Shown here piece after piece: positions 24,087 through 60,076 of a DNA stretch of 64,000 nucleotides. The notes below the pieces were generated by a model. That model made no database searches, was not told the origin of the DNA, and saw nothing but the letters and a program-made list of their open reading frames with translations. The first letter of the stretch is position 1, and the number at the start of each line of letters is the position of its first letter. The stretch lies in assembly GCF_000506985.1 (NCBI RefSeq), contig NZ_KI650979.1, forward strand, positions 2,294,710 through 2,358,709, in the 5' to 3' direction. This DNA is from Advenella kashmirensis W13003. Its GTDB lineage: Bacteria; Pseudomonadota; Gammaproteobacteria; Burkholderiales; Burkholderiaceae_B. Position numbers and translations under genes: made by a program.

Positions 24087-25133
24087 TCAAGGCAGGTTTT
24101 CCCGAAAAATAATCTGGCTCTGCACCGGATCGACGCCGCTCATGACAGGGCGTCGATCGCGCAAATTGGCAAAGATCCGAATGCTGTTCATGGTTGTGGT
24201 TTGCGGATTCTGGGTAATGACCGCGTCCATGGTGCCATCAATGAGCAGGGCGCGGGTGTCGGGCGTCAGTCCGTGGCCGATAAACACGACTTTATGTGCC
24301 AGACCCGCTTCCTTCAGCGCCCGGGCAACGCCGTCCGATGCGCCGCCTATATTGTAAATACCGGCCAGCCCGGGCGATTGCTCCAGTAATTGGCGTGTGA
24401 GGCGATAGTTCTCCTCGGCGCTATCCAGTCCTTCTCTGAGCCCGACAACGTCAACCGTGGGGAACAATTCCTTGAACATATACAGAAAACCCATTTCGCG
24501 CTCTTCGTGCGCGCGATAACTCAGGCTTCCGGCAATCATGGCGGCCTTGGCCGGTCGCGCCCCGATAAAACGGGCGATCAGATAGGCTGCCGTACGCCCG
24601 GCCGCCCTGTTGTCCAGACCGATGTATGCGGCGCGACGGGTGTTGGAGATATCGGTAATCAATGTAATCACGTGCTTGCCTTTTTCGACCAGATCCTCGA
24701 TGGCGTCACGAACCAGGGGATGTTCAATAGCCATGCAGGCCACGCCGTCGGCACGCTCGGCCTGCTTTTTCAGGCTGGTGGCAAGCGCCTCGGGATTGAA
24801 TCCTTCGACATAGTCCACTCTGCATTTCACGTTATAGGGAGCCCAGCTGTCATGAGAGTAGGTAATGGTGTCACCCAGCATTTTGATAAAACGGTTGGTG
24901 CCTTTGGGTAATACAAATGAAATACGCATGGCGCTGGGCGTGAGGGCTGCGTACAGATCATTTTCCGGAAGATAGGCCAACTCTGCTGCCGCCTTCAGTA
25001 CGCGCTGGACGGTAGCTTCCCGTACGCCCGCCCGGCGATTCAGGACGCGATCTACCGTGGCGGTGGAAACGTTTGCCAGGCGCGCAATATCGGAAATATT
25101 GGCTTTGCCTGCGGGGTTGTGTGGATTTGCCAT
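24087..25133 (-). CDS. LacI-family transcriptional regulator
   Basis: Repressor with LacI-type helix-turn-helix at the N-terminus (ISDIARLANVSTATVDRVLN, then RRAGVREATVQRVLKAAAEL) and a periplasmic-binding-protein-like sugar domain. The start is probably ATG 25133 (MANPHNP); in-frame ATGs at 25151 and 25148 are possible, all with poor ribosome sites; length 348 from 25133. The gene is divergent from the TRAP/RuBisCO-like operon beginning at 25246 and very probably controls it. A 17-base sequence occurs twice between and around the two starts (25137-25153, 25212-25228), candidate binding sites. Confidence 0.92.
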   Translation of the reverse strand: MANPHNPAGKANISDIARLANVSTATVDRVLNRRAGVREATVQRVLKAAAELAYLPENDLYAALTPSAMRISFVLPKGTNRFIKMLGDTITYSHDSWAPYNVKCRVDYVEGFNPEALATSLKKQAERADGVACMAIEHPLVRDAIEDLVEKGKHVITLITDISNTRRAAYIGLDNRAAGRTAAYLIARFIGARPAKAAMIAGSLSYRAHEEREMGFLYMFKELFPTVDVVGLREGLDSAEENYRLTRQLLEQSPGLAGIYNIGGASDGVARALKEAGLAHKVVFIGHGLTPDTRALLIDGTMDAVITQNPQTTTMNSIRIFANLRDRRPVMSGVDPVQSQIIFRENLP

Positions 25134-25136
25134 TAC

Positions 25137-25153
25137 ATCAAAAACCATCATTT
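25137..25153. repeat. 17-bp direct repeat, copy 1 (candidate LacI-type site)
   Basis: ATCAAAAACCATCATTT, identical to the copy at 25212-25228, 75 bases away (about seven helical turns). This copy lies at the 5' edge of the lacI gene. Confidence 0.6.
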
Positions 25154-25211
25154 GGAATGATTGACGCTGTCATCATATCACTATATCGTTTCGGCTATAA
25201 AAATAAAAAAA

Positions 25212-25228
25212 ATCAAAAACCATCATTT
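25212..25228. repeat. 17-bp direct repeat, copy 2 (candidate LacI-type site)
   Basis: Second exact copy of ATCAAAAACCATCATTT, 18 bases before the dctP start codon and just ahead of its CTGGAGA ribosome site, so binding here would block the operon leader. Confidence 0.6.
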
Positions 25229-25245
25229 ATTATCTGGAGACAACG

Positions 25246-26265
25246 ATGCAGAAATATTCCCGCCGCAGCATGCTGCGCACGCTCTCTGCCATGCCGCTGG
25301 CGGGTGTGGTCGGCGCTTTGCCTCAGGTGGCGCGCGCCGCCGAGTTTTCTTATAAATATGGCAACAACCTGCCTTTGTCGCATCCGTTGAACATACGTGC
25401 CAAGGAAGCCGCTGACGAAATCCGGGAAAAATCCGGCGGGCGCGTGGATATTGCCATATTTCCGAATAATCAGCTGGGCGGCGATACCGACATGTTGTCT
25501 CAGGTGCGATCCGGCGGCATACAATTCTTTACGCCATCTTCACTGGTGATCGCGACGCTGGTGCCAGTTGCCGCCATCAACGCGCTGGGATTCGCATTCA
25601 GTGACTATTCACAGGTCTGGAAAGCGATGGATGGGGAGCTGGGCGCTCATGTGCGTGCGTCTATCCGCAAAATCCGCTTGTACGCTTTCGACAAAATGTG
25701 GGATAACGGCTTTCGTCAAATGACCAGCAGTAAGGCGCCCATTCAACAGGCCAGCGATCTTGATGACCTTAAAATCCGCGTGCCGGTCAGCCCGCTGTCG
25801 ATTTCCATGTTCAAGGGGCTGGGTGCCTCTCCTACCAGTCTTCAATTTTCCGAGGTGTATTCCTCTTTGCAGACGAAAATTGTCGATGCTCAGGAGAATC
25901 CACTGCCGATTATCCAGGTTGCAAAACTCTATGAAGTTCAGAAGTATTGTTCATTGACCAATCACATTTGGGATGGTTTCTGGTTTATTGCCAACGGCGC
26001 AGCCTGGGATCGGTTGCCTGATGACCTGAAAAAAATCGTAGCCGACGGGATCAATGGCGCGGGTATGCGCCAGCGCGAGGACATTAAAAAGCTGAATGAA
26101 TCAGTTGTCACCGATTTACAGTCCAAGGGCCTGACATTCAACACCCCCACTCCGGACTCGTTCCGGGAGGCCTTGCGGCATGCCGGCTTCTACAAAGAGT
26201 GGAAAGGGCGGTTTGGCGATGAAGCCTGGGCTGCCCTTGAAGCGTCCGTCGGCAAGCTGGTTTAA
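25246..26265 (+). CDS. TRAP transporter substrate-binding protein (DctP type)
   Basis: Periplasmic receptor of a TRAP transporter, 339 residues, that delivers an organic acid to the DctQM membrane part. The N-terminus has a twin-arginine motif (SRRSMLRTLSAMPLAG) and cleavage is likely after ARAAE. The fold is recognised by YKYGNNLPLSHPLNIRAKE, the LGGDTDMLSQVRSGGIQFF helix region and the carboxylate-binding arginine expected in LKIRVPVSPL near residue 182. First gene of the operon, 5 bases before dctQM. The context with an acid-sugar kinase and a RuBisCO-like protein suggests a sugar acid as ligand. Confidence 0.93.
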   Translation: MQKYSRRSMLRTLSAMPLAGVVGALPQVARAAEFSYKYGNNLPLSHPLNIRAKEAADEIREKSGGRVDIAIFPNNQLGGDTDMLSQVRSGGIQFFTPSSLVIATLVPVAAINALGFAFSDYSQVWKAMDGELGAHVRASIRKIRLYAFDKMWDNGFRQMTSSKAPIQQASDLDDLKIRVPVSPLSISMFKGLGASPTSLQFSEVYSSLQTKIVDAQENPLPIIQVAKLYEVQKYCSLTNHIWDGFWFIANGAAWDRLPDDLKKIVADGINGAGMRQREDIKKLNESVVTDLQSKGLTFNTPTPDSFREALRHAGFYKEWKGRFGDEAWAALEASVGKLV

Positions 26266-26269
26266 TCAC

Positions 26270-28168
26270 ATGGATACTGCCATGCACTCAGATTCCGCGC
26301 TGCGAGCGCCAACGTCTGTCGGTTCATCTGCATCCGGTGCCGCCAGATGGCTGGTCGCGGTGGACCGGGTACTCGGGCGTTGCATTGAGCTGGTCGCCGT
26401 TACCCTGATTCTTCTGGAAGTGGTCATCCTGTTTTCAGGGGTGGTAGCGCGGTACGTATTGCATGTGCCATTGGTGTGGACCGATGAATTGGCGTCCATT
26501 CTGTTTCTCTGGTTGTCCATGCTGGGTGCCGTCATTGCGCTGCGGCGCGGACAACACATGCGCATGACCGCATTCATTGATCGCGTATCGCCACATACTC
26601 GTTTGCTTCTTGAAGGATTCGCGCTATCTGCGTCCATGGCATTCCTGGTGCTGTTTCTGTATCCTGCTTTTGAATATGCCTATGAAGAGTCCTATATCGT
26701 GACGCCGGCGCTGGAAATCAGCAACGCCTGGCACGCTGCGGCCCTGCCGACCGGCATTGCACTCATGATATTGACGTCGGCAACCCGCATGGCCATGACG
26801 GCCAGCCGCAAGCAACTGTTCACCAGTCTGGGCGTGACGCTGGCCCTGCTGGCTGCTTTCTGGCTGGCGCAACCCTGGCTGATGGAGCTGGGCAAATTCA
26901 ATCTTGTGATCTTCTTTGTGATTGTTGTGGCTGCCGGTGTTTTCTCGGGTGTGCCTATCGCGTTTTCCTTTGCGCTGGCGACCTTCGGCTACCTGACGCT
27001 CACCACGCAGACGCCTATCGTGGTCATGGTAGGACGACTGAATGAGGGCATGTCGCATTTGATTTTGCTGGCGGTGCCATTATTCATTTTTCTGGGGGCG
27101 CTCATTGAAATGACGGGCATGGCCCGGGCCATGATCCAGTTTCTGGCCAGTTGCCTTGGGCGGGTGCGTGGGGGACTGTCCTATGTGCTGATCGGTGCCA
27201 TGTATCTGGTGTCCGGCATTTCGGGGTCAAAAATTGCTGACATGGCCGCAATCACACCCGTGTTATTCCCGGAGATGGAAAAGCGCGGCGCAAAAAAAGG
27301 CGAACTCGTCGCGCTGCTATCTGCCACAGGCGCGCAGACCGAAACGATCCCGCCTTCTATCGTATTGATTACCATTGGTTCGGTCACGGGCGTATCGATT
27401 GCCGCACTCTTCACTGGAGGGATTCTGCCGGCAGTTGTGCTGGGCTTATGTCTTTGTGTGGTCGTCGGCTGGCGCTATCGTGGCGAGAACATGGCCCAGG
27501 TGCCCAAAGTCCCCGCACGCGAGATTTTTCGTTTGCTGATGATTGCTTTGCCTGCCATCTCTTTGCCGTTCGTGATACGGGCTGCAGTGGTGGAGGGCGT
27601 GGCGACCGCAACTGAAGTTTCGACCATCGGTGTGGTGTATTCCGTTGTTCTGGGACTGGTGGTTTATCGGCAGTTTGACTGGAAACGCATTACACCCATC
27701 CTGGTGGAGACGGCAACGTTGTCTGGCGCCATCATGCTGATCATCGGTTGCGCGACTGCCATGGCGTGGGCGCTCACTCAGTCGGGTTTCTCAAGTGACC
27801 TGGCGGCGCTGATGGCGGGGGTGCCGGGAGGCGGCTACGGTTTTCTGATTATTTCGGTGATTGCATTCATTATCCTGGGCAGCATTCTGGAAGGCATTCC
27901 GGCCATTGTGCTGTTCGGGCCACTGCTTTTCCCCGTTGCGCGTGCATTGCATATTCATGATGTGCATTATTCCATCGTCGTCATTTTTGCGATGGGCATC
28001 GGGCTGTTCGCGCCGCCCTTCGGCGTAGGGTACTACGGCGCCTGCGCCATCAGCAAGGTCGACCCATCAGAAGGCATGCGGCATATCTGGGGTTACGTCG
28101 TCGCACTGCTGGTGGGCTTGATGATTGTGACTTTCGTGCCCTGGATATCAACGGGTTTTATTAAGTAA
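26270..28168 (+). CDS. TRAP transporter membrane protein, fused DctQ-DctM
   Basis: Fusion of the small (DctQ, residues ~25-195, four helices) and large (DctM, from ~205, about twelve helices) TRAP membrane subunits; about 632 residues from ATG 26270. In-frame ATG 26282 is an alternative, and upstream in-frame starts inside dctP are rejected. DctQ is marked by VVARYVLHVPLVWTDELAS, DctM by GVPIAFSFALATFGYL, SGSKIADMAAITPVLFPEM and GATGAQTETIPPSIVLI-like segments. Import is driven by the sodium or proton gradient. Translation is probably coupled to dctP. Confidence 0.93.
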   Translation: MDTAMHSDSALRAPTSVGSSASGAARWLVAVDRVLGRCIELVAVTLILLEVVILFSGVVARYVLHVPLVWTDELASILFLWLSMLGAVIALRRGQHMRMTAFIDRVSPHTRLLLEGFALSASMAFLVLFLYPAFEYAYEESYIVTPALEISNAWHAAALPTGIALMILTSATRMAMTASRKQLFTSLGVTLALLAAFWLAQPWLMELGKFNLVIFFVIVVAAGVFSGVPIAFSFALATFGYLTLTTQTPIVVMVGRLNEGMSHLILLAVPLFIFLGALIEMTGMARAMIQFLASCLGRVRGGLSYVLIGAMYLVSGISGSKIADMAAITPVLFPEMEKRGAKKGELVALLSATGAQTETIPPSIVLITIGSVTGVSIAALFTGGILPAVVLGLCLCVVVGWRYRGENMAQVPKVPAREIFRLLMIALPAISLPFVIRAAVVEGVATATEVSTIGVVYSVVLGLVVYRQFDWKRITPILVETATLSGAIMLIIGCATAMAWALTQSGFSSDLAALMAGVPGGGYGFLIISVIAFIILGSILEGIPAIVLFGPLLFPVARALHIHDVHYSIVVIFAMGIGLFAPPFGVGYYGACAISKVDPSEGMRHIWGYVVALLVGLMIVTFVPWISTGFIK

Positions 28169-28232
28169 TCCGGATGCACCAGAAGAATTCATTACCCCAC
28201 GCACTGTTTTTATCAAAAAGCTGGAACATAAC

Positions 28233-28772
28233 ATGAGCATTTTTTTTGGCGAAATTCGTCAGCTGGGATATGTCGTTGATGATATCGAAGAGGCGATGGC
28301 CTATTGGAGCGATACCCTGGGTGTCGGGCCCTGGTATTACAACCCCAAAGTACCTATTCGCAATTATGAGTACGATGGAAAGGCCTATGAGCCGCATAAT
28401 TCCGTGGCACTGGCCAATTCGGGTTTTGTGCAGGTCGAGTTGATTCAAACGCGTAATGATGTCCCTTCCATGTATCGGGATTTTCGTCAGGCCGGCCGTA
28501 CTGGCTTGCAACATGTGGCTTACTGGACCGAGCAATATGACGCCGATCTGGAGCGCCTGCTCAAGCAGGGATTCAAGCCGCGCATGAGTGGCGAAGTGGG
28601 TGAACAGGGACGGTTTATTTACTTTGACACAGAATATCATCCTGGCACGGTCATTGAGTTGTCGGAAGTGGCAGGCCCCAAGGGGCGGCTGTTTGATCTG
28701 ATCCGCGAAACAGCGGAGAACTGGAATGGACAGCAGGCCGTCAGGCCGTTTCCGGACCTGGATACATTATGA
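28233..28772 (+). CDS. VOC-superfamily metalloprotein (glyoxalase-like)
   Basis: 179-residue protein of the vicinal-oxygen-chelate fold, with two beta-alpha-beta-beta-beta modules. Candidate metal ligands sit at the classical places: Q10 (RQLGYVVDDIEEAMAYW), E69 (VQVELIQ), H94 (LQHVAYW) and E142 (VIELSE). Such enzymes stabilise an enediolate and include epimerases, isomerases, lyases and dioxygenases. Its stop overlaps the start of the RuBisCO-like gene (ATGA), so it belongs tightly to that pathway. An isomerase or epimerase step that forms the 3-oxo acid is an attractive guess, not a demonstrated role. Confidence 0.85.
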   Translation: MSIFFGEIRQLGYVVDDIEEAMAYWSDTLGVGPWYYNPKVPIRNYEYDGKAYEPHNSVALANSGFVQVELIQTRNDVPSMYRDFRQAGRTGLQHVAYWTEQYDADLERLLKQGFKPRMSGEVGEQGRFIYFDTEYHPGTVIELSEVAGPKGRLFDLIRETAENWNGQQAVRPFPDLDTL

Positions 28773-30043
28773 GTACCCAGGACGTTCTGGCCCGATATGC
28801 GGTGGAAACGCCTTTTGAGCCGGCCAGGGTCGCTGAAATCATGGCTGGCGAGCAATCTTGCGGCACCTTTACCCGCGTTGCCGGAGAAACCGATGAACTC
28901 AGGCAACGGGCCCGTGCCACGGTTTGCGCGGTTCGCGAGCTTGCTGCAGCCGATGTTGCCAGTCTGCCCAATGCATGGCTGGAGCGCAGAGGTGTTAAGG
29001 GTCCATGGCGTCGCGCCGAGATTGATATTTCATTCCCCGTCGCCAATTTTGGTGCAAATCTGGCCACGCTGGCTGCGACCGTTTCGGGTAATTTGTATGA
29101 TCTGGGCGAAGTGACCGGACTGCGCCTGGAATCGCTGACCCTGCCATCGTCATTTCGAATGCAATTTGAACTGCCGCGGCTTGGTGTGGATGGAACCCGT
29201 GCCAGTATAGGTGCCAGCGATGGCGCGATGGTCGGCACCATTATCAAGCCCAATGTCGGCCTGACTGCGCAGCAGACGGCTGAGCTGGTCAAAACCCTGT
29301 GTGAGGCAGGTGTTGATTTCATCAAGGACGATGAAGTATGCGCCAACCCTGCACATGCGCCGCTGGCAGAGCGGGTTCCGGCGGTGATGGCGGTAATACG
29401 TGAGCATGCGCAGCGTACCGGGAAAAAAGTCATGATGGCATTCAATATTAGCGACGATCTGGACGCCATGCGACGCCATGCCGATCTGGTCCGGCAGCAG
29501 GAGGGCACCTGCGTCATGGCCAGCCTGAATTACTGCGGTTTTTCAGCCATTCAAAGCTTGCGGCGGACTACGGAGCTGGCTGTGCACGGTCATCGCAACG
29601 GCTTTGGTGCGCTATCGCGGCATCCTTTGCTGGGGATCGGTTATCAACCCTATCAGGCAATGTGGCGACTTGCCGGCGTGGATCATATGCATGTGCATGG
29701 GCTGCAGGGAAAGTTTTCACAACCCGATAGCGAAGTTGTTGATGCTGCGGCTGTTTCCCTGGGCAGAATGTCCGATAGCGTTGATGATCGGGTGCTGCCG
29801 GTGTTTTCGTCGGGTCAGTGGGCCGGGACGGTTCCTGCAACCTGGCACGCAGTTCAAAGCCAGGATCTGCTTTTTATGTCGGGTGGCGGTATTCTCGCCC
29901 ATCCCATGGGGCCGGCGGCAGGTGTAGTCAGTCTTCGACAGGCCTGGGCCGCGCAGCAGGAAGGTGTTTCTCTGGCACATTACAGTCGCAATATGCCGGA
30001 ATTGAAGGCGGCGCTGGATTTTTTCGGTGCCTCGCAATCATGA
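28769..30043 (+). CDS. RuBisCO-like protein (form IV type), probable 3-oxo acid-sugar phosphate decarboxylase
   Basis: 424-residue homologue of the RuBisCO large subunit. Aligning by eye to spinach numbering, most active-site residues are kept: E28 (E60), T33 (T65), N108 (N123), K160 (K175), K186/D188/E189 of FIKDDE (carbamylated K201, D203, E204), H275-R276 (H294-R295), H308 (H327), K315 (K334) and S371 (S379). The second lysine of the KPK motif is N162 in place of K177. This is not a carbon-fixing enzyme: no small subunit or phosphoribulokinase is near. With the adjacent DUF1537 kinase it resembles OiaX, which decarboxylates 3-oxo-isoapionate 4-phosphate. It overlaps both neighbours by four bases. 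Confidence 0.9.
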   Translation: MSTQDVLARYAVETPFEPARVAEIMAGEQSCGTFTRVAGETDELRQRARATVCAVRELAAADVASLPNAWLERRGVKGPWRRAEIDISFPVANFGANLATLAATVSGNLYDLGEVTGLRLESLTLPSSFRMQFELPRLGVDGTRASIGASDGAMVGTIIKPNVGLTAQQTAELVKTLCEAGVDFIKDDEVCANPAHAPLAERVPAVMAVIREHAQRTGKKVMMAFNISDDLDAMRRHADLVRQQEGTCVMASLNYCGFSAIQSLRRTTELAVHGHRNGFGALSRHPLLGIGYQPYQAMWRLAGVDHMHVHGLQGKFSQPDSEVVDAAAVSLGRMSDSVDDRVLPVFSSGQWAGTVPATWHAVQSQDLLFMSGGGILAHPMGPAAGVVSLRQAWAAQQEGVSLAHYSRNMPELKAALDFFGASQS

Positions 30044-31398
30044 GCCTGAAGTTCGGCTGGTATGGCGATGATTTCACTGGTGCAACCGATACGCTGGCTG
30101 TCGCGGCACGCTCGAACTTGCGCAGTATCCTGTTTCTGGATGTTCCCACGCAGAAGCAGTTGTCGCGCGTCGGCCCGCTTGAGGCCATTGGCATTGCCGG
30201 TACTGCCCGCTCCATGTCCGGGCTGCAAATGCAGGCATCGTTACCCAGGGTGGGACGTTTCTTCCAGGAAATGGCAGTTCCGGTTCTGCATTACAAATGT
30301 TGTTCCACTTTTGACAGTGCGCCGAACGCAGGCAGCCTGGGCGAAGCCATTCGCATTCTGGGGCAATATGTCGGAGCGCCATGCGCATTGATCGTGGGCG
30401 GACAGCCCGATATTGGCCGCTATTGTTGCTTTGGCAATCTGTTTGCCTCGGCCGGCAGTTCCAGTGATATTTATCGCATCGATCGGCATCCGACCATGCA
30501 GTGTCATCCGGTCACACCGATGGATGAAGCCGATTTGCGATTGCATTTGAAATGCCAGGGCATGCAGGACGTGTTCAGCGTTCCTTACACGGCTTACAGG
30601 CAGCAGCCGGCTGCGTTGGACGAGCAGGTGGATCGCGCCAGTGATCATGGTCGCAGCGACATGGGAAAGATGGGTCGGGCTGTGTTGTTTGATGTGTCCG
30701 ATAACGCTCAGCTCACCCATATTGGGCGACAAATCCAGCGCCTGGCCAAACGGTATAACACAGCCCTGGTCGTCGGTTCGAGTGTTGTTTTACAAGCGGT
30801 GGCCGCTCATTGGGGCGATGATCAAAATCACGATGCTTCAGAGATATCGTTGCCAGAGGCCAGCACGCGCAAAAAGGCAGGTGGACCGACATTTGTGTTG
30901 GCAGCAAGCCTGTCTCCCGTGACCGCAGCCCAAGTGGCAACGTGCCACTCATATGAAAAAATCGCATTGCAGGCGCGAACGCTGCTGGTCGACGCAGCGT
31001 ACCGGCAGGCGCAATGCCGGAAAATCTGTGATTTACTGGCCAAAAAACGTCATGTATTGGCTTATGTCGATCAACAGAACGGACGCGATCCAGGTATCGA
31101 TTCGGGCGACCTTGCCCAGGGTACGGCACAGTTTGTCCGCGACGTGATGCACGGACTGGCAGAACGTGGCATTCGCCTGGGCCATCTTGGGATCGCGGGA
31201 GGGGACACATCGAGCCAGGCGGTGGCACGATTGAATGTCTGGGCCTTGTCCTATTCAAGAATACTGTCGCCGGGGGTGACCGTTTGCACCATGCATAGCG
31301 ACGATGTCATGCTGGACGGGCTTGAAGTGATGCTCAAGGGCGGTCAGATGGGAACCGAGGACGTGTTTGAAAGGCTGTTGTTGCGGCCAGAGGACTGA
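30040..31398 (+). CDS. DUF1537 four-carbon acid sugar kinase-family protein
   Basis: 452 residues from the ATG at 30040, which overlaps the RuBisCO-like gene stop; an upstream in-frame start at 29818 lies inside that gene and is rejected. The N-terminal sugar-acid domain starts with GWYGDDFTGATDTLA (Asp pair typical of the family), and the C-terminal ATP domain has GIAGGDTSSQAVARL near residue 390 and KGGQMGTEDVF near the end, where other members often have a KPGN-type motif. Characterised relatives phosphorylate 3-oxo-tetronate, D-threonate or 3-oxo-isoapionate (OtnK, DtnK, OiaK). Here it should supply the phosphorylated substrate of the RuBisCO-like protein. OiaK-like is the best guess. Confidence 0.9.
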   Translation: MSLKFGWYGDDFTGATDTLAVAARSNLRSILFLDVPTQKQLSRVGPLEAIGIAGTARSMSGLQMQASLPRVGRFFQEMAVPVLHYKCCSTFDSAPNAGSLGEAIRILGQYVGAPCALIVGGQPDIGRYCCFGNLFASAGSSSDIYRIDRHPTMQCHPVTPMDEADLRLHLKCQGMQDVFSVPYTAYRQQPAALDEQVDRASDHGRSDMGKMGRAVLFDVSDNAQLTHIGRQIQRLAKRYNTALVVGSSVVLQAVAAHWGDDQNHDASEISLPEASTRKKAGGPTFVLAASLSPVTAAQVATCHSYEKIALQARTLLVDAAYRQAQCRKICDLLAKKRHVLAYVDQQNGRDPGIDSGDLAQGTAQFVRDVMHGLAERGIRLGHLGIAGGDTSSQAVARLNVWALSYSRILSPGVTVCTMHSDDVMLDGLEVMLKGGQMGTEDVFERLLLRPED

Positions 31399-31501: not shown

Positions 31502-31708
31502 ATGACTGATCATATCTATAAACATATTGAGCTGACAGGATCCTCCAAAACCAGCATCGAAGAAGCCGTCAGCAATGCACTTGCCAAAGCCAACGAGACG
31601 GTGCGCAATATCCAGTGGTTTACCGTTACCGAGACGCGAGGTCATGTAGTGGACGGCAAGGTTGCGCATTGGCAGGTCACCATCAACGCAGGATTTACAC
31701 TGGATTGA
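31502..31708 (+). CDS. Dodecin-family flavin-binding protein
   Basis: Small protein of 68 residues from ATG 31502, chosen because AAAGGAGC precedes it (an ATG at 31472 does not). Dodecins assemble as hollow dodecamers that store or buffer flavins. The family pattern is clear: [35 protein letters not shown] and [18 protein letters not shown] (in parts). It stands alone, about 100 bases after the kinase gene, and is probably a separate unit. Confidence 0.93.
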
Positions 31709-31817: not shown

Positions 31818-32717
31818 TTATTGAGGTCGGCGTTCTGCAATTAGTTTATACATGACCGTATGATCTGTCGGCCCATGACTGGCAGCAGCGTGATGCCATA
31901 ATTTGCCTATTTCTTCTCCCAGCGGTAGCGCCTGCCCCATGTTCTCGGCAAGATCTAATGCAATACCTACGTCTTTTGCCATTAACTGAAGTGAGAAGCC
32001 GGAATTGAATGTTCCGGAAAGAATGAATTGTTTTACTTTGTAGTCGGTAGCGCTATTTTTGCCAGACGACCGGTTGAGCACGTCCGTCATGAGTGACAGA
32101 TCCAGTCCAAAACGTTCCGCCACCAACAAGGCTTCTGTCGCAGACACAAAACTGACGGCGGCAATATAATTATTCAACGCTTTTAATGCGTGACCGCAAC
32201 CATTTGATCCGACGTGCGTGATGCTCCCCATCAGAGACAGCAACTCAGATACTTCTTTGACCTTCCCGGGATCGCCACCGGCCATGATTGTTAGCATGCC
32301 GGTCATTGCTTTTTTTACGCCACCAGAGACGGGCGCATCAATTAAACTAATTTGCTGCTCTTCCAGCTGCTTTGCAAGTTCACGTGTTCTGACCGGATTG
32401 GAAGAACTCATGTCGATAATGAGCGATGACGGTGGCAAAATATTAATTAATCCGTCGGTGTCTGAGGTTCCGAGCACGACAGACTCAACGGCGTTGGAGT
32501 CTGGAAGCATCAGAATGACGACACCAACATCGTCGGACAGATTTTTGTATGTCTGTAACGCTTTTGATTGCGGGTGTTCTGCGACGAATTTTCTGAGATG
32601 ACCGTCTGACATATCAGACACTTCCATCGACAGTCCCGCATGATAAAGCCGGGATGCCATAGGGTAGCCCATCGCGCCTAAACCGATAAAGCCGATTTTT
32701 CTTGAAGGTGTTGGCAT
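31818..32717 (-). CDS. 3-hydroxyisobutyrate/tartronate semialdehyde dehydrogenase-family protein
   Basis: NAD(P)-dependent beta-hydroxyacid dehydrogenase of 299 residues. Start at ATG 32717, preceded by AGGAGG; it overlaps the stop of the preceding gene by one base (TAATG). Motifs: Rossmann loop GFIGLGAMGYPMASRL at the N-terminus, the substrate motif DAPVSGGVKKA, and the catalytic lysine in GHALKALNNY. Last gene of the iclR-bug-carboxymuconolactone decarboxylase-like operon on the minus strand. It probably reduces or oxidises a small hydroxyacid made in that route. Confidence 0.9.
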   Translation of the reverse strand: MPTPSRKIGFIGLGAMGYPMASRLYHAGLSMEVSDMSDGHLRKFVAEHPQSKALQTYKNLSDDVGVVILMLPDSNAVESVVLGTSDTDGLINILPPSSLIIDMSSSNPVRTRELAKQLEEQQISLIDAPVSGGVKKAMTGMLTIMAGGDPGKVKEVSELLSLMGSITHVGSNGCGHALKALNNYIAAVSFVSATEALLVAERFGLDLSLMTDVLNRSSGKNSATDYKVKQFILSGTFNSGFSLQLMAKDVGIALDLAENMGQALPLGEEIGKLWHHAAASHGPTDHTVMYKLIAERRPQ

Positions 32718-33094
32718 TAAATGGCCTCCTGAGAAAATACGTCGCGCGCGAGCCGAAAGCATTCAAGACCTGCAGGCACACCGGCATAGACGGCGACCTG
32801 CAGGAATATTTCGACCATTTCTTCTTTCGTGACGCCATTATTCAACGCACCCTTGATGTGAAGTTTGAGTTCGCTGGGCCGGTTAAGTGCAGCAATCATC
32901 GCCAAATTCAGCAGGCTGCGTGTTTTCCGTTCCAACCCGGGACGCCCCCAAACCTCTCCCCAGCAATACTGGGTCACAAACTCCTGGAAGGGCATGAAAA
33001 AATCGTCGGCATTTTTCATGGCAGTATCGACTGCACGGTCACCTAACACTTCCCTGCGAATTTTCATTCCTTTGTCAAACAGCTCTTTATTCAT
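32717..33094 (-). CDS. Carboxymuconolactone decarboxylase-family protein (PcaC-like)
   Basis: 125 residues from ATG 33094, preceded by AAAAGGA; an in-frame start at 33124 has no ribosome site. The helical fold and the motif ELKLHIKGALNNGVTKEEMV followed by YAGVPAG match gamma-carboxymuconolactone decarboxylases, the AhpD/PcaC superfamily. No redox CxxC motif of AhpD is seen, favouring the PcaC side. It follows a bug gene (27-base gap) and is coupled to the dehydrogenase. Other protocatechuate genes are absent, so it may act on a related beta-keto or lactone acid. Confidence 0.88.
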   Translation of the reverse strand: MNKELFDKGMKIRREVLGDRAVDTAMKNADDFFMPFQEFVTQYCWGEVWGRPGLERKTRSLLNLAMIAALNRPSELKLHIKGALNNGVTKEEMVEIFLQVAVYAGVPAGLECFRLARDVFSQEAI

Positions 33095-46985: not shown

Positions 46986-48374
46986 ATGAAGACAATTTCA
47001 CAGACGATCAGCAATAAGGCTCGGGCCTTTACGTACGACAACATTCCCCACGAAGTGCGTGAGCGGGCGCGACATTTGATGCTTGATGCGTTCGGGATCG
47101 CATTTGCCTCGACCCGCTTTGATTTTTCCCGCCGCACCCTCGATGGGTTGCTCGCCCTGACTGAAGGTTCGGCAGGCAACGTGCCCGTCGTGGGCATGGA
47201 CACAAACTTGCCCACTCGCGATGCGGCAGTCATGAACGGCCTGCTGATTCACGGTCTTGATTACGACGATACGCATCCGAATGGGATTATTCACGCCACG
47301 GCATCGGTGGTTACAGCCGTGACGGCACTGGGCTACGCACACAATAAATCTGGAAAGGATCTGTTGACGGCGTATGTGTTGGGTATTGAAGTGGCCACCC
47401 GGCTCGGCGCCGCCGCGCGTGGCGAGTTCCATCAGGTCGGGTTTCATCCGACTGGCCTGATTGGCGCCTTTGGATGCACGATCGCCGCCGGCTTGCTGCT
47501 GGGTCTGACCGAAGAGCAAATGACGCACGCGCAGGGAATCACACTGTCATTTGCTGCGGGCAGCATGGAGTTTTTGCAAGATGGCGCATGGACAAAGCGC
47601 ATTCATCCGGGCTGGGCAGCGCAATGCGCCATTACCGCGGCAACCTTGGCAAAGAATGGATTCATCGGGCCAAGAGAAACCTATGAAGGGCGCTTTGGTC
47701 TGTTTGCCAGTCATTTGGGCAAGGACTTTCAATTGAATGGTCTGCAAGAGGAGATCGACACGATCGGCCAGACATGGGAATTGAATAATGTTGCGATCAA
47801 ACCGATCCCGGCGTGCCATTTTACGCATGCCAGCGCCGATGCTGCTGCGATCCTGCATAAAGACCTGGCCCTGGAGCAGATCGCCAGGATCGTCGCGAAA
47901 GTGCCTGCCGGAGTCATGAAAACCGTGTGCGAACCGGTCGAGAACAAGAAAAGGCCGGCCAACGCCTACGAGGCTCAGTTCAGTATTCCATACTCCGTGG
48001 CAACCGGCTTGCGCTATGGCCGTTTCGGACTGGATGCCCTTGACGAAGCCGCCTATACGGATGCGACCACACTTGCCATTGCTGAAAAAGTCGAAAGCAT
48101 GGCGGATCCGGAAGCGGATTTTCCAAAATACTATTCAGGCGAAGTGATTGTGGAGCTGAAAGACGGAAGCATGCTGTCTCATCGTGAACATATCAACCGT
48201 GGTGCCGATACCCGGCCCATTACCAACGAAGAAATCGTGCTGAAGTTTCGCGAAAATGCGGGAACCGTACTGAAGGCTGAGTCCATCGACCGGATTCAGT
48301 CCTTGATCCAGAACATCGAAAAACATGACGCTCGTGATTTGCTGGACGGCATGAGCAAGGGGGAACAGAAGTAA
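46986..48374 (+). CDS. MmgE/PrpD-family protein
   Basis: 462 residues of the family that includes 2-methylcitrate dehydratase and cis-aconitate decarboxylase (the itaconate-forming enzyme). Visible family segments: RARHLMLDAFGIAFASTRFD, NGLLIHGLDYDDTHPNGIIH and NNVAIKPIPACHFTHASADA. The exact reaction cannot be read; substrates are usually tricarboxylates or branched dicarboxylates. It overlaps the acyl-CoA dehydrogenase start by one base (TAATG). Confidence 0.92.
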   Translation: MKTISQTISNKARAFTYDNIPHEVRERARHLMLDAFGIAFASTRFDFSRRTLDGLLALTEGSAGNVPVVGMDTNLPTRDAAVMNGLLIHGLDYDDTHPNGIIHATASVVTAVTALGYAHNKSGKDLLTAYVLGIEVATRLGAAARGEFHQVGFHPTGLIGAFGCTIAAGLLLGLTEEQMTHAQGITLSFAAGSMEFLQDGAWTKRIHPGWAAQCAITAATLAKNGFIGPRETYEGRFGLFASHLGKDFQLNGLQEEIDTIGQTWELNNVAIKPIPACHFTHASADAAAILHKDLALEQIARIVAKVPAGVMKTVCEPVENKKRPANAYEAQFSIPYSVATGLRYGRFGLDALDEAAYTDATTLAIAEKVESMADPEADFPKYYSGEVIVELKDGSMLSHREHINRGADTRPITNEEIVLKFRENAGTVLKAESIDRIQSLIQNIEKHDARDLLDGMSKGEQK

Positions 48375-49537
48375 TGCACGCAACCAACACATACGATTTG
48401 GAACAGGAACAGTTAATCCTGGATATGCTGGATCGCTTTCTGGCGGTCGAAGTTCAGCCGCATGTTCACAAACTGGAACACGATGATATTTATCCCGAAG
48501 AGATTGTGGAAAAAATGAAGGAGATGGGGCTCTTTGGCTGCCTGATTGCGCCCGAATATGGCGGCCTGGGGTTGTCCACAGTCACATACGCAAAGATCAT
48601 CGAGCGCATGTCCGCAGTCTGGATGTCGATTTCAGGCATTATCAATTCGCATGTCATTATGGCCATGACCGTCCAGCGTAACGGCACCGACGAGCAGAAG
48701 CGCGCCTTTTTACCGCGTTTCGCGACAGGTGAGCTACGCGGCGGGGTCGGACTGACTGAGCCTGATTGCGGCACAGATTTGCAGGCCATCAGAACGGTAG
48801 CGCGTCGCGATGGCGACAAATATATCGTGAATGGCTCGAAAATGTGGATAACCAATAGTATGTACGGCAATTGTCTTGCGCTGCTGGTCAAGACCGATCC
48901 GCAAGCCATGCCACGGCATCGCGGCATGAGTCTGCTGATTGCGGAAAAAGGCAAGGGGTTTGTGGTCAGCAAGAAGCTGGAGAAGCTTGGTTATAAGGGG
49001 ATTGACACCTGCGCACTGAATTTTGACGACTACGAAGTGGATGCGTCGCGCCTGATCGGCGGGGTAGAAGGCAAGGGGCTGCAGCAAATTCTCAACGGCC
49101 TGGAACTGGGACGCATCAACGTGGCGGCGCGTGGCCTGGGCGTGGCGCAGGCGGCGCTGACAGAGGCGCTGGTCTATTCCCAGACGCGTAAAACGTTCGG
49201 CAAGCCCATTTGTGAACATCAGGCCATACAACTGAAATTGGGAGAAATGGCGACGCGTACCGAAGCGTCCCGACTGCTGGTCTATTCAGCTGCCGCAGCC
49301 TACGACAAAGGTGAACGTTGTGATGCCGAAGCCGGCATGGCAAAGTATTTCGCAACCGAGGCCGGTATGGAGAATTCGCTGGAGGCAATGCGCATATTTG
49401 GCGGTTACGGTTATTCCAAGGAATACAACGTTGAACGGCTTTATCGCGACGCGCCCCTGCTGCTGATCGGTGAAGGTACCAATGAGATGCAGCGAATCAT
49501 TATTGCGAAACAGATGATTGAGAGGAACCGGATATGA
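48374..49537 (+). CDS. Acyl-CoA dehydrogenase
   Basis: FAD enzyme of 387 residues making a 2,3-enoyl-CoA. Motifs: GGVGLTEPDCGTDLQAIRT near residues 118-136 (FAD-binding), WITNSMYGN, and the catalytic Glu in LLLIGEGTNEMQRIII near residue 365. QTRKTFGKPICEHQAIQLKL is the family C-terminal signature. In the operon it could oxidise methylsuccinyl-CoA or a similar ester ahead of the MaoC hydratase; this is inferred from neighbours. It overlaps the CaiB gene by four bases. Confidence 0.94.
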   Translation: MHATNTYDLEQEQLILDMLDRFLAVEVQPHVHKLEHDDIYPEEIVEKMKEMGLFGCLIAPEYGGLGLSTVTYAKIIERMSAVWMSISGIINSHVIMAMTVQRNGTDEQKRAFLPRFATGELRGGVGLTEPDCGTDLQAIRTVARRDGDKYIVNGSKMWITNSMYGNCLALLVKTDPQAMPRHRGMSLLIAEKGKGFVVSKKLEKLGYKGIDTCALNFDDYEVDASRLIGGVEGKGLQQILNGLELGRINVAARGLGVAQAALTEALVYSQTRKTFGKPICEHQAIQLKLGEMATRTEASRLLVYSAAAAYDKGERCDAEAGMAKYFATEAGMENSLEAMRIFGGYGYSKEYNVERLYRDAPLLLIGEGTNEMQRIIIAKQMIERNRI

Positions 49538-50745
49538 GCAGCACGACGCAGGACACGGCAGGCAGTATGCTGCCGCTGGCGGGGATACGAATTATCGCAG
49601 TTGAACAATATGGTGCAGGTCCTTTCGGCACACAACATCTGGCCGACCTTGGCGCAGAAGTGATCAAAATCGAAAACCGCGCCGATGGCGGTGACGTCGG
49701 CCGGCACGTCGGGCCCTATTATTTCGATGAAAATGACAGTCATTTTTACCAGTCATTCAATCGCAATAAAAAAAGTATGACGCTCAACCTGAAATCAGAG
49801 CAGGGGATCGAAATACTGCACCGACTGGTACAAAATGCAGCCGCCGTCTTCAATAACTTGCGGGGCGATCTTCCGGAAAAACTGGGCCTGACATATGATG
49901 CTTTGAAGCATCTGAATCCGCAACTTGTCTGTGGACACTTGTCGGCTTACGGCCGGCAGGGCAGTCGCAAAGCCTGGCCGGGATATGATTACCTGATGCA
50001 GGCCGAAGCCGGATATTTGTCTCTGACCGGCGAACCGGATGGCCCGCCCAGTCGCATGGGATTGTCCATTATAGATTTGATGACCGGCACAACCGCTGCG
50101 ATGGGCTTATTGGCAGGTATCCTGGGGGCCCGCGCCACCGGCGTCGGGCGTGATATTGATGTGAGCCTGTATGATGTGGCAGTCCATAATCTGGCTTATG
50201 TAGGAACGTGGTATCTGAATGAAGGATTTTCGCTCAAGCGTGAGCCGTTCTCCAGCCATCCGTCTCTGACTCCCAGCCAGCTGTACCGAACGGCTGACGG
50301 CTGGGTATTTCTGATGTGCAACAAGGAAAAATTCTGGGGCACGTTATGCAAGGCGATTGAGCGTCACGACTGGATTGCCAGCGAACAGTATTGCGATTTC
50401 AAAAGCCGCCTGAAAAACCGGGATCAGCTCAAGCAGGATCTGGAGGTCGTGCTGGCAGCGCACACCACCGAGGAGTGGATGACACGCTTTGCCGGCAAGG
50501 TGCCTGCAGCCCCTGTTTATGACGTCGCGCAGGCGCTGGACAATGATTTCATTCGTGAGCAGGAGCGTATTCTGGAACTGGCGCATCCTACGACCAAGGT
50601 ACGGGTGATCGCGTCGCCGGTTCGGGCGGGCGAGCATCCCGTGCGAGCGGCGCCGGCGATGGGACAGGACAATGCAGCGCTGCTTAGTGAAATCGGCTAC
50701 AGTGAATCGCAGATTCAATCTTTCCTGGAAAGCGCGGTCATTTAG
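49534..50745 (+). CDS. CaiB/BaiF-family (class III) CoA transferase (2)
   Basis: 403 residues. N-terminal RIIAVEQYGAGPFGTQHLA and LADLGAEVIKIENRADGG are typical, and the catalytic Asp is in SRMGLSIIDLMTGTTAAMG near residue 175. Start overlaps the dehydrogenase stop (ATGA). It is the last gene of the MaoC operon and would load CoA onto the imported acid. A short 51-base gap separates it from gntR, so read-through is possible. Confidence 0.94.
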   Translation: MSSTTQDTAGSMLPLAGIRIIAVEQYGAGPFGTQHLADLGAEVIKIENRADGGDVGRHVGPYYFDENDSHFYQSFNRNKKSMTLNLKSEQGIEILHRLVQNAAAVFNNLRGDLPEKLGLTYDALKHLNPQLVCGHLSAYGRQGSRKAWPGYDYLMQAEAGYLSLTGEPDGPPSRMGLSIIDLMTGTTAAMGLLAGILGARATGVGRDIDVSLYDVAVHNLAYVGTWYLNEGFSLKREPFSSHPSLTPSQLYRTADGWVFLMCNKEKFWGTLCKAIERHDWIASEQYCDFKSRLKNRDQLKQDLEVVLAAHTTEEWMTRFAGKVPAAPVYDVAQALDNDFIREQERILELAHPTTKVRVIASPVRAGEHPVRAAPAMGQDNAALLSEIGYSESQIQSFLESAVI

Positions 50746-50796
50746 CAAAGATGTCAATGTCAGCTCACTATAATAGAAGTTTTTTGAGGCACAAAG

Positions 50797-51573
50797 ATGG
50801 CAAGGTCAGCTGACGCTTTTCATGATTCGTTGCTCAATACCAGCCAGCCGCGATATATGCAACTGGCCAAAACACTGGTGGCCGAAATCGCCGACGGAAA
50901 GTATGCGGTAGGCGATCTGCTGCCCACCGAACAGGAGTTGTGCACGCAGTTCGGCATCAGTCGTTTTACGGCAAGGGAAGCATTGAAAAAGCTGGTGCAA
51001 TCAGGCTTGGTAACGCGCCAGCCCGGCGTTGGCACCAAGGTTGTGTCCAGTAAGGCCACGAGTGCCTACAGCCAGAACATGGCAGGTATTTCCGATCTGT
51101 ATCAGTACGCGACCGATACGACACTTGTCATCGAAAAACAGGAAATCATCGCCCTGACCGAAGCGCAAAGCGCGCTGGTCGAAGGCACGGCCGGAGAAAC
51201 CTGGCTGCATTTGCAGGGCAAGCGATTTGTAGCAGACAATCCTTTGCCCATTTGTGTAACGGAAATCTGGATCCATCCTGCATTTCGATCCATCCGCGGT
51301 GTGCTGGGTGAGCAGCATGAAGCCATTCACTCCAATATTGAACAGCAGTTTGGCGAAACTATCGCCACGGTCGATCAGCAAATCGATGCGATCTCGCTGA
51401 CCCGCGCTCACGCGACGCAATTGCAGGCCAGGGCAGGCAGCCCCTGTCTGAAGATCGTTAGAAAATACCGCAATCGAAAAGGCGAGCTGATTGAAGTGGC
51501 GGTCAGCACGCACGCTGCCGATCGTTATTCTTATCATTCTGTCTTCAATCGGGAATGGCGTGTCGAAGCATAA
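50797..51573 (+). CDS. GntR-family regulator, HutC/UTRA subfamily
   Basis: 258 residues: winged helix (PRYMQLAKTLVAEIADGKYA, LLPTEQELCTQFGISRFTAR) and C-terminal UTRA ligand domain. It lies between the CoA-transferase operon and the MFS-lyase pair, all on the plus strand, so it probably controls the whole set. No strong ribosome site is visible. The effector is likely an organic acid or CoA ester of the pathway. Confidence 0.92.
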   Translation: MARSADAFHDSLLNTSQPRYMQLAKTLVAEIADGKYAVGDLLPTEQELCTQFGISRFTAREALKKLVQSGLVTRQPGVGTKVVSSKATSAYSQNMAGISDLYQYATDTTLVIEKQEIIALTEAQSALVEGTAGETWLHLQGKRFVADNPLPICVTEIWIHPAFRSIRGVLGEQHEAIHSNIEQQFGETIATVDQQIDAISLTRAHATQLQARAGSPCLKIVRKYRNRKGELIEVAVSTHAADRYSYHSVFNREWRVEA

Positions 51574-51597
51574 TCAGGTACCCGTAGCGAGTCAGCC

Positions 51598-52839
51598 ATG
51601 AGCGAATTTTCCCGCACACCGGTGCCGGGTGCGGCATCCGGGCGACAGGCCTGGCTGGTTCTGATTCTGACACTCACCATTCAGGCGCTGGCGTCAATGA
51701 TTCTGCTGGTGCCGCCGGTAATGGCCCCGGTGCTGTCCACGACATTGAGCGTGCCTGCCACTTATATTGGTTTTTACATTGCCGTTGCGTATCTGTCTGC
51801 CATGGTCAGCAGCCTGAGTGCAGGTGCGATGCTGACCATCATTGGCCCCATCAGGCTTAGTGCCCTGTGTATTGTGTCATCAGCCGTCGGCGTGACGCTT
51901 TTTGTGCTGATTCCTTCCATTGCGACCCTGGCGCTTGCGGGGGTCTTTATTGGTCTTGGATATGGTCCCGTGACCCCTTGCAGCTCCCAGATTCTGATCA
52001 AAAACACGCCGATGCACAGGCTAAGCCTGACGTTTTCAATCAAGCAGACCGGTGTGCCATTGGGTGGCGTGCTGGCGGCGATGGTGATGCCCACCTTGCA
52101 GGAACTGGTGGGCTGGCGCAGTGCGCTGGGCATAATATGCGTCGTGCTCTTTATTTGTGCCCTGGTGTCGTTCCTTGCTCCCCGCTCATGGGAGCCCAAG
52201 GCAACGGCTGCCGCCAAATCCTTTCGGGACGAATTCATCGATGCGCTGAGAATGATTTTCCAGATTCCTGTCCTGCGAACCCTGGCAATTTGTTCCTTCT
52301 GCTTTTCGGTATGCCAACTGACATTAATGACGTATGCCATTACGTTTCTGCACAGTGAAGTAGGAACATCGCTGGTACTGGCGGGCGTCTTTCTGTCTGT
52401 CTCTCAGGCAGCGGGCGTGATCGGCCGGATTTTATGGGGTTATCTGGCGGATAATTTTTTCTCCACATGGAGTGTCTTGCTTGCCCTGGCTGCCGGTATG
52501 CTGATGTCGGCCATCGGCGTATTTTATATTGACGCCAACGCAAGCCAATGGTGGATCATTTTCGTGTTTGCGGTTTTTGGAGCGACGGCGATTGGCTGGA
52601 ATGGGGTCTATCTGGCAGAAGTCGCCAAGCGTGCGCCCGAAGGAAAATCGGGTTCGGTCACCGGCGGAACCCTCGCAGTAACCTACCTGGGCGTGGTGCT
52701 TGGACCGCCTGCGATCGGGCTGATCTCCCAGGCGACGGGCGGATTCGGTTACGGCTTTCTCGCTTTACTGATACCCACTATCGCATCCATGATTTTACTG
52801 ATCAGAACCCGACCGCATTTCACAGGAGGACTCAAATGA
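51598..52839 (+). CDS. MFS transporter, organic-acid type
   Basis: 413 residues, about twelve membrane helices, with the cation:anion symporter-like look of carboxylate carriers. Segments: GLGYGPVTPCSSQILIK, TFSIKQTGVPLGGVLAAMV and WNGVYLAEVAKRAPEGKSG. It starts 24 bases after gntR and its stop overlaps the CitE-like gene start (ATGA), which ties it to that enzyme. It offers a second uptake route next to the Bug receptor in the same locus. Confidence 0.9.
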   Translation: MSEFSRTPVPGAASGRQAWLVLILTLTIQALASMILLVPPVMAPVLSTTLSVPATYIGFYIAVAYLSAMVSSLSAGAMLTIIGPIRLSALCIVSSAVGVTLFVLIPSIATLALAGVFIGLGYGPVTPCSSQILIKNTPMHRLSLTFSIKQTGVPLGGVLAAMVMPTLQELVGWRSALGIICVVLFICALVSFLAPRSWEPKATAAAKSFRDEFIDALRMIFQIPVLRTLAICSFCFSVCQLTLMTYAITFLHSEVGTSLVLAGVFLSVSQAAGVIGRILWGYLADNFFSTWSVLLALAAGMLMSAIGVFYIDANASQWWIIFVFAVFGATAIGWNGVYLAEVAKRAPEGKSGSVTGGTLAVTYLGVVLGPPAIGLISQATGGFGYGFLALLIPTIASMILLIRTRPHFTGGLK

Positions 52840-53651: not shown

Positions 53652-53669
53652 ATTCTTTGCAAAGCCCTG

Positions 53670-53716
53670 CAGGGGAGCGCTTTTCCCCTGAAACACATTT
53701 GTGTTTATTTTCAGGG
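53670..53716. terminator. Nested/competing hairpins between the CitE-like gene and udh
   Basis: CAGGGGA (53670-53676)/TCCCCTG (53684-53690) forms a first stem 18 bases after the lyase stop; AAACACA (53691-53697)/TGTGTTT (53700-53706) a second. CCCTGAAA (53686-53693) can instead pair with TTTCAGGG (53709-53716), which would break the first. A T-rich stretch follows the second stem (ATTTT). Probably a terminator of the upstream operon. Confidence 0.5.
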
Positions 53717-53793
53717 TAAACGATAATTCCAAGATGTCAGATAACATACAACAATGATAAGCATACATCATCCGTATTTCAGCTGGAATTTTC

Positions 53794-54618: not shown

Positions 54619-54663
54619 TGACAGGGTTGGTATTCCGGAGGTTGATCGGAATGGGAGAAATGC

Positions 54664-55428: not shown

Positions 55429-55432
55429 GCAG

Positions 55433-56795: not shown

Positions 56796-56836
56796 CAGTT
56801 GAACGCAGCACACTATATCAATAAGGTAGAAGACAA

Positions 56837-57634: not shown

Positions 57635-57907
57635 TAGCAGCGCAAATGTCTTCCCCGCAAGTACTGGCGGTCGTGCGCGCCCATCGACGCCTGTCATGAC
57701 ACTTGCGGTTACTTTCCTTTCCCCGATACTATCACACCTACCCGGACAGAATATGGCATACTGGTTTTGTCATATTCCGGGGTGAGGGTTTGCCCGCCTG
57801 GCAACGATCAGCCGCATTTTCACCAGTGAACAATGCCGCATGGTTACCGTGACCCCGCTTTTCGTTTCAACTGATCATTATTCAAGTTCCGTTTTAAGGA
57901 GATGCTA

Positions 57908-60001: not shown

Positions 60002-60029
60002 ATATTCATTTGTGATAATACTAATTAGT

Positions 60030-60074
60030 AATGTCACCACGGACGGTTTTCTTCCGTGGTGACATTATTTTTTT
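60030..60074. terminator. Strong intrinsic terminator after catalase
   Basis: Perfect 14-bp stem AATGTCACCACGGA (60030-60043)/TCCGTGGTGACATT (60053-60066), 9-base loop, then A and seven T. The converging gene stops 3 bases beyond the T-run; for it, AATATT-type A-rich sequence on the other side makes weaker termination possible. Confidence 0.93.
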
Positions 60075-60076
60075 GA

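Follow-up and report, generated by a model that had tools for sequence, protein, structure and literature searches.

A conserved set of VOC, RuBisCO-like and DUF1537 kinase genes in Advenella kashmirensis as a candidate operon for acid-sugar catabolism

The stretch of DNA analysed here (the window; 64,000 nucleotides, positions 2,294,710 to 2,358,709 of contig NZ_KI650979.1 of Advenella kashmirensis W13003) contains a cassette of six genes for a regulator, a transporter and three putative enzymes. The gene for the LacI-type regulator, a protein with a LacI HTH and a Peripla_BP_4 domain (24087..25151, minus strand), is divergent from an operon on the plus strand that starts with dctP for a TRAP solute-binding protein (25246..26265) and dctQM for a fused TRAP permease (26270..28168; the open reading frame extends from 26180 to 28168, and the ATG at 26270 is the likelier start). 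The operon continues with the genes for a VOC protein of 179 amino acids (28233..28772), a RuBisCO-like protein (RLP) of 424 amino acids (28769..30043) and a DUF1537 kinase of 452 amino acids (30040..31398). All named Pfam domains of the six genes exceed their gathering scores, and the finding of DctP, DctQ and DctM domains identifies a DctP-type TRAP transporter. The spacing between dctQM and the VOC gene is 64 bp, and both the VOC/RLP and the RLP/kinase junctions consist of a 4-bp ATGA overlap. The kinase gene starts with the ATG at 30040; the longer frame that opens with a GTG at 29818 is mechanical. The first-pass annotation of this DNA had described the divergent LacI gene, dctP-dctQM and the VOC, RLP and DUF1537 genes with four-base overlaps, and all six genes were indeed found where it had placed them.

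The VOC, RLP and kinase genes (the triad) form a conserved and widespread bacterial unit: The RLP and kinase genes are located directly 3' of the VOC gene and on the same strand in 118 of the 122 VOC loci that share at least 55% identity and have at least 2.8 kb of contig downstream, L223 and L224-L226 being the four that deviate. Since the triad is kept in so many loci, the arrangement is not due to chance. It was present in all 30 such loci of the Burkholderiales relatives (38 neighbourhoods around RLP relatives), in 73 of 73 GTDB contigs (the best 80 of at least 585 confirmed VOC places, 7 of the 80 contigs being too short), in 7 of 7 loci of a sample across the phylum (of 398 genomes, 23 were positive at 1e-60; 27 places, 20 stretches compared) and in 8 of 12 loci from the family of genome G361 (a VOC relative in 29 of 295 genomes at 1e-30; 20 of 30 places compared). 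A rhizobial set added 6 RLP loci. These sets overlap and the counts are not independent; several genomes occur twice (e. g. L036 and L071). The triad occurs in Burkholderiales and Alphaproteobacteria, and the same gene order is seen on the four plasmid records that were examined out of 302 with an RLP match (Azospirillum brasilense, Neorhizobium, Roseomonas and Pseudosulfitobacter). No description of this gene set was found in the open-access PMC literature, among the matches listed, in agreement with the earlier statement that a VOC protein in such a coupled set was not known to have been described. Moreover, a VOC-type first enzyme seems not to have been reported in such acid-sugar pathways in the literature searched.

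The OiaK/OiaX branch of D-apionate catabolism, reportedly described by Carter et al. in 2018, provides a comparison for the kinase and the RLP. We take decarboxylation to be the reaction of the Agrobacterium RLP, and transcarboxylation/hydrolysis, with 3-phosphoglycerate and glycolate as products, to be that of the Xanthobacter RLP, OiaT. In the accessible part of PMC6302742, RLPs of these two genera are assigned decarboxylation and transcarboxylation/hydrolysis of 3-oxo-isoapionate 4-phosphate. As far as the branch is covered in the accessible parts of PMC6302742 and PMC11747546, our locus shares with it an adjacent DUF1537 kinase and RLP that are related to OiaK and OiaX, whereas it encodes no ApnO, LerI or DerI, its RLP stays below the OiaX cut-off and belongs to another tree group, and a VOC gene is located in front. 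With both RuBisCO domains above the Pfam cut-offs (213.3 and 39.4 bits), the RLP is a form IV member of the RuBisCO superfamily. A second RuBisCO-domain protein (449 bits) is encoded elsewhere in the genome (12 contigs, 4.85 Mb) and is evidently a true RuBisCO. An enolase of the MtnW type can be set aside: the RLP scores 122.3 and 155.6 bits with the MtnW models, far below their cut-offs of 513.6 and 409, so that the clustering with MtnW that the first-pass annotation had named as speaking against its proposal is not seen. Among the NCBIfam models, OiaX is the nearest, at 417.6 bits against a cut-off of 700 (NF042437); the positive controls L209 and L211, the two of six OiaX-type RLPs on which this cut-off was run, reach 780 and 787 bits. 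The best solved relative is PDB 3NWR (625 bits over 415 residues), which is listed as 'a rubisco-like protein' with no function named, and which presumably comes from Burkholderia fungorum.

The phylogeny and the active-site residues set the VOC-linked RLPs apart from OiaX. In a tree of 87 rows, made by a quick method and rooted at the midpoint, 58 of the 59 VOC-linked RLP rows fall into one group (SH-aLRT 100) together with the RLP of L062, a locus without a VOC gene. This is a large and coherent RLP group for which we found no assigned function (structure 3NWR, and generic annotation names in the records examined). Its sister group has 17 rows, i. e. nine that are linked to the oxidoisomerase ApnO, five unassigned ones, two with TRAP/SDR genes, and L190; the ten of them that were scored reach 438-473 bits with the OiaX model, again below the cut-off. 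The six OiaX-type rows are placed further off, outside the VOC group, under the midpoint root. We also compared 20 RuBisCO positions, chosen by motif in the RuBisCO that the genome itself encodes and numbered as in the spinach enzyme. Fifteen of the 20 are kept in the RLP of the window and in 58 of 58 rows of the VOC group (E60, T65, N123, K175, K201, D203, E204, H294, R295, H327, K334, S379, G381, G403 and G404), and five are changed (W66, T173, K177, H298 and G380). The six OiaX-type rows have D60, G123, Q327 and, in five of the six, G379; the nine other ApnO-linked rows keep E60, N123, H327 and S379 (9/9). Judged by scores, tree and residues, the RLP is a relative of OiaX but not OiaX itself, and the OiaX-like decarboxylation that had been proposed for it is weakened: the protein misses the OiaX cut-off, is not grouped with the OiaX-type rows and has retained residues lost in those. 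An apparent in-frame TGA in several RLP matches was set aside as a candidate selenocysteine codon: among the six loci checked (L026, L028-L032) it is in frame only in L028 and L029, where it is a normal stop that the alignment runs past.

The distribution of the partner enzymes of the D-apionate pathway points in the same direction. The ApnO-like proteins have a PGDH_C domain, with weak similarity to ketol-acid reductoisomerase in L191, and we take the PGDH_C proteins at RLP loci to be ApnO from their family and context; near the ApnO-like gene of L209, the RLP exceeds the OiaX cut-off (780 bits) and another protein exceeds the DerI cut-off (254.7 against 240 bits). No locus of 129 combines VOC and ApnO genes, and ApnO is encoded in 14 of 27 RLP loci without a VOC gene (L196 and L214 being overlapping stretches among them). 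Genome-wide, ApnO is absent from 26 of 29 VOC genomes at 1e-30 and is encoded at another locus in the remaining three (G440, G519 and G735). The two systems can coexist, and since both occur in these three genomes, they may serve different substrates. The earlier idea that the VOC protein takes the place of the oxidoisomerase is right as to the position of the entry enzyme; the same three genomes weaken a plain replacement of ApnO and make a stand-in on the same substrate doubtful. In the genome of the window, neither ApnO nor DerI was found, and a single Tpi-like protein has 36% identity to a LerI candidate. The absence of the oxidoisomerase and of the tetrulose-phosphate isomerases, first noted for the cassette, holds for the whole genome. 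A close DerI-like protein (at least 50% identity) is likewise absent from 28 of 29 VOC genomes and present in all six genomes that hold OiaX-type rows (the query was taken from one of these six). Genomes with other ApnO-linked RLPs give a mixed picture: G239, G338 and G017 yielded no match and G440 and G465 only 33-42% identity, but G520 reaches 51%, and G203, in which an OiaX-type RLP is encoded as well, 63%. We regard as improbable a D-apionate-type route along the lines of the first-pass annotation, in which the operon would produce 3-oxo-isoapionate 4-phosphate for an RLP that acts as OiaX and forms L-erythrulose 1-phosphate. The RLP and the kinase do score best with the OiaX and OiaK models, and L190 shows that a pair of the ApnO-linked group can be combined with a VOC protein and a TRAP transporter; however, both cut-offs are missed, the RLP differs from the OiaX-type rows in its residues and its place in the tree, and the VOC genomes mostly lack ApnO and DerI. 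The pattern of RuBisCO residues and the scarcity of DerI-like proteins lead us to favour a transcarboxylase/hydrolase outcome, as in OiaT, over simple decarboxylation for the RLP. OiaT is probably the closer functional relative: Its reaction needs no isomerases, and 15 of the 20 RuBisCO residues compared are kept. The present locus differs from it in the lack of ApnO and in the VOC gene in front, and the likeness is drawn from descriptions of OiaT rather than from its sequence. L190, from G361, is instructive: its VOC protein (75% identity), TRAP proteins (75/70%) and LacI regulator (62%) are of the window type, and its RLP and kinase fall into the ApnO-linked group (supports 99 and 95). This swap suggests that the kinase/RLP pair is exchangeable between VOC and ApnO settings, which argues that both kinds of pair would handle similar 3-oxo acid phosphates.

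The third protein of the triad is a DUF1537 kinase, with 148.9 bits for SBD_N and 74.1 bits for NBD_C. By domains, NCBIfam scores and tree, it is a distant relative of OiaK: This model is the nearest, at 264 bits against a cut-off of 700 (NF042436). This cut-off separates poorly because the kinase beside the true OiaX of L209 also misses it (470 bits). The assignment of kinase and RLP to an OiaK/OiaX kind of pair gains support, since both proteins score best with these two models. Another candidate comes from the four-step L-threonate route: As presented in the accessible part of PMC12540250, OtnI, OtnK and OtnC have in common with the triad an isomerase, a DUF1537 kinase and an enzyme that cleaves a C-C bond; in the triad, the isomerase and the decarboxylase would be of families unrelated to OtnI and OtnC. 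A linear four-carbon pathway could match this route step for step, with the VOC protein replacing OtnI (2-oxo-tetronate to 3-oxo-tetronate), the kinase phosphorylating 3-oxo-tetronate, the RLP replacing OtnC as a plain decarboxylase that yields dihydroxyacetone phosphate, and an SDR, where present, replacing LtnD. The product would be central, so that no isomerase would be needed, and among the 59 VOC-linked rows in the RLP tree set, 7 do have an SDR gene in front of dctP. Nevertheless, we consider this route unlikely, if with a real chance: The kinase is closer to OiaK and reaches only 150 of the 350 bits of the 3-oxo-tetronate kinase model (NF043035), the 15 RuBisCO sites kept by the RLP are more than a decarboxylase should need, and most loci lack a dehydrogenase.

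For the VOC protein, the AlphaFold model (mean pLDDT 86.3, from 26 closely related sequences) has the fold of methylmalonyl-CoA epimerases, which account for 20 of the top 21 PDB rows, one of them labelled 'putative'. By query length, the TM-score is 0.67 for the first row and 0.48-0.58 for the others. Despite the common fold, the protein reaches only 24.8 bits with the methylmalonyl-CoA epimerase model TIGR03081 (cut-off 114.95). Its predicted metal ligands Q10, E69, H94 and E142 align with H12, Q65, H91 and E141 of 1JC4, which we take to be the metal ligands there. E69, H94 and E142 are present in 71 of 71 sequences and Q10 in 69, with two gaps. Methylmalonyl-CoA epimerase takes a proton from between a carboxylate and a carbonyl. 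The same chemistry would be open to a 2-hydroxy-3-oxo acid and to its 2-oxo and aldehyde isomers, and for this reason the modelled VOC protein is probably an isomerase or epimerase that works through an enediolate without redox chemistry. If it does serve as an isomerase in acid-sugar catabolism, this would, to our knowledge, extend the VOC fold to a new role.

The transporters associated with the triad vary. The fused TRAP system is the transporter in most VOC loci, a three-gene TRAP system is located beside the triad in others (e. g. L044, L051, L121 and L180-L182), and a polar amino-acid-type ABC system in still others (e. g. L042, L045 and L179). The earlier notion of uptake by a TRAP transporter is supported as to the uptake of an acid and is not general, since two other transporter types serve the triad. 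In the ABC variant, all 9 of the 9 binding proteins compared have Thr at the position of what we take to be the amino-group-binding Asp of this family, and this makes an alpha-amino acid unlikely as the substrate. The SDR gene is located between the LacI gene and dctP in seven loci from five distinct genomes (L041 and L114 are the same genome, as are L048 and L105), and also in the Neorhizobium plasmid record. The DctP proteins of the seven loci form one group with that of L110, which has no SDR (support 99). In this minority of loci, the SDR probably oxidises an imported reduced form of the substrate. The nearest solved DctP is PDB 4OAN (452 bits), which we take to be a Rhodopseudomonas palustris protein with an acetolactate ligand. 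Its identity to any DctP row of the tree is 64% at best. According to a review (PMC5812351), 2-acetolactate is among the ligands that a structural survey found for TRAP proteins. The gene that encodes 4OAN exactly (100%) was found in G636, and its orthologues are accompanied by dctQM in 6 of 7 loci and by an acyl-CoA ligase family gene in 5 of 7, not by the triad. As the operon of 4OAN differs from ours and represents a paralogous dctP-dctQM-acyl-CoA ligase system, its ligand is weak evidence here.

The regulator and its putative target sequence suggest how far the system extends. A LacI-type gene occupies the same place in most of the best 80 VOC loci (of at least 585 places) and is replaced by a LysR-type gene in L056-L061. 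The gap between the LacI gene and dctP is flanked by a 14-bp direct repeat, a putative operator with the sequence ATCAAAAACCATCA at 25137..25150 and again, 75 bp from the first copy, at 25212..25225 (both plus strand). The repeat is exact, with one ambiguous base, in the window and in five other Advenella loci, and in four loci that are more distant it recurs with at most two mismatches. The window holds only these two matches at up to one mismatch, a number that was reached in none of 100 shuffles. In six Advenella genomes, the exact pair precedes only this operon and there is one stray copy in G006; the putative operator is limited to this operon in five of the six genomes when exact matches are counted, a count that would miss degenerate copies. 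If the repeat is what LacI binds, the regulator controls no dehydrogenase or isomerase gene elsewhere through an exact site, and this supports the idea that the three enzymes may form a complete, self-contained route.

We tentatively propose, as a reading that falls a little short of being probable, that the triad is part of an operon, controlled by LacI and complete in itself, for the catabolism of a small carboxylic acid sugar in which a carbonyl group (aldehyde or ketone) is already present, with an OiaT-like end. What we observe are the genes, their conservation, the tree groups, the residues and the DNA repeat; the enzyme activities in this scheme we infer from the families of the proteins: The TRAP system would take up the acid sugar, and the VOC protein would move a proton via an enediolate, thus converting the imported isomer to a 2-hydroxy-3-oxo acid without redox chemistry. 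As in OiaK and OtnK, the kinase would then phosphorylate the terminal hydroxyl group beside the 3-oxo group. The RLP would decarboxylate the 3-oxo acid phosphate to an enediolate, return the CO2 to the neighbouring carbon, as is reported for OiaT, and hydrolyse the recarboxylated product to 3-phosphoglycerate and a short acid. Such a cleavage would require no tetrulose-phosphate isomerase. A much more specific version is tempting, if a long shot: the VOC protein might be an aldose-ketose isomerase for 3-C-carboxy aldoses, converting HOOC-C(OH)(R)-CHOH-CHO to HOOC-C(OH)(R)-CO-CH2OH, with the kinase acting on the CH2OH group and the RLP forming 3-phosphoglycerate and R-COOH. Aceric acid, a component of the plant pectin rhamnogalacturonan II, would be such a substrate (R = CH(OH)CH3), and the short acid would then be lactate. 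If true, three redox-neutral enzymes would make up the route, and this would explain the absent dehydrogenase, the absent isomerases and the isolated operator. No bacterial route for aceric acid was found in the titles and abstract openings among the matches listed. Be that as it may, the VOC-group RLPs go together with a single kinase, a single VOC protein and, in most cases, a single regulator, so that the substrate could be found by direct assay. Should the RLP catalyse transcarboxylation, it would add to the natural cases of a RuBisCO relative moving CO2 between carbons, and would inform the origin of RuBisCO chemistry.

Several observations weigh against the proposed OiaT-like operon. In the RLP, K177 is lost (N162) and H298 is F or Y in most rows, so that recarboxylation is not assured; moreover, the ApnO-linked non-OiaX RLPs are themselves only presumed to act like OiaT, the tree being without an OiaT sequence. 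The VOC protein shows no conservation at position 55, which lies close to where the epimerases have their second catalytic base. L190 leaves room for a substrate that resembles 3-oxo-isoapionate more closely, and this compound has at C2 no proton that an epimerase could remove. The distribution of DerI does not divide genomes with OiaX-type RLPs neatly from those with other RLPs: G496 combines the triad with a DerI-like protein at 57%, G520 has a DerI-like protein (51%) on the same contig as an ApnO-linked, non-OiaX RLP (472.7 bits), and weaker RpiB-like matches (33-41%) are present in the VOC genomes G022, G605 and G440. The triad can also be incomplete: L223 has LacI, dctP and VOC genes only, without RLP or kinase, L224-L226 carry VOC, TRAP and kinase genes but no RLP, and L062 has an RLP of the VOC group with no VOC gene in the 1.8 kb before it. 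Finally, 4OAN, the nearest DctP structure, belongs to a different operon and its ligand says little. A branched six-carbon pathway as in hamamelose catabolism, with the RLP as an oxygenase that yields 3-phosphoglycerate and glycolate, seems very unlikely to us. A published Ochrobactrum RLP is of such a kind (Kim 2018, as cited in the accessible parts of PMC8914248 and PMC10176493), and hamamelose is the source of the carboxyarabinitol pools of plants, according to the accessible part of PMC9833046; yet no recurrent set of dehydrogenase and lactonase genes was seen beside the triad in the drawn neighbourhoods, where most flanking genes lack an identification.

Relatives of the single genes also occur in other surroundings. 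In L224-L226, the VOC protein (56-59% identity) and DctP/DctQM (61-63/50-52%) are encoded together with a DUF1537 kinase, and in L224 genes for a PdxA-like dehydrogenase, a DeoR-like regulator and a DeoC/LacD-family aldolase take the place of the RLP gene; here the same front end may be joined to a different back end. More distant VOC relatives (48-51% identity; L227-L234) are found in another context with neither RLP nor kinase nearby. On the Azospirillum brasilense plasmid, the LacI gene that belongs to the VOC operon has in its vicinity a gene annotated as acetolactate synthase large subunit and one for a 3-keto-5-aminohexanoate cleavage protein (L235, 1-2101). In L185, which has no VOC gene, the RLP and kinase genes cluster with genes for a beta-keto acid cleavage enzyme (BKACE), two SDRs, a TRAP system and an HpcH/HpaI aldolase. 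RLP relatives with 44-47% identity are present on halophilic archaeal plasmids (H35, H41, H45, H47, H49, H50 and H56) and on the Rufibacter plasmid H46, where the gene overlaps that of an annotated acid sugar kinase.

In the window, the kinase gene is followed by a gene for a dodecin-like protein of 68 amino acids, as judged by eye (31502-31708), and by a convergent gene for a 3-hydroxyisobutyrate-dehydrogenase-like protein (31818-32762). The latter was set aside as the dehydrogenase of the pathway, as a homologue is present in 0 of the 38 loci of relatives compared. Farther downstream, the region 46986-62176 encodes MmgE/PrpD, acyl-CoA dehydrogenase, HpcH/HpaI lyase, catalase and AtuA-family proteins.

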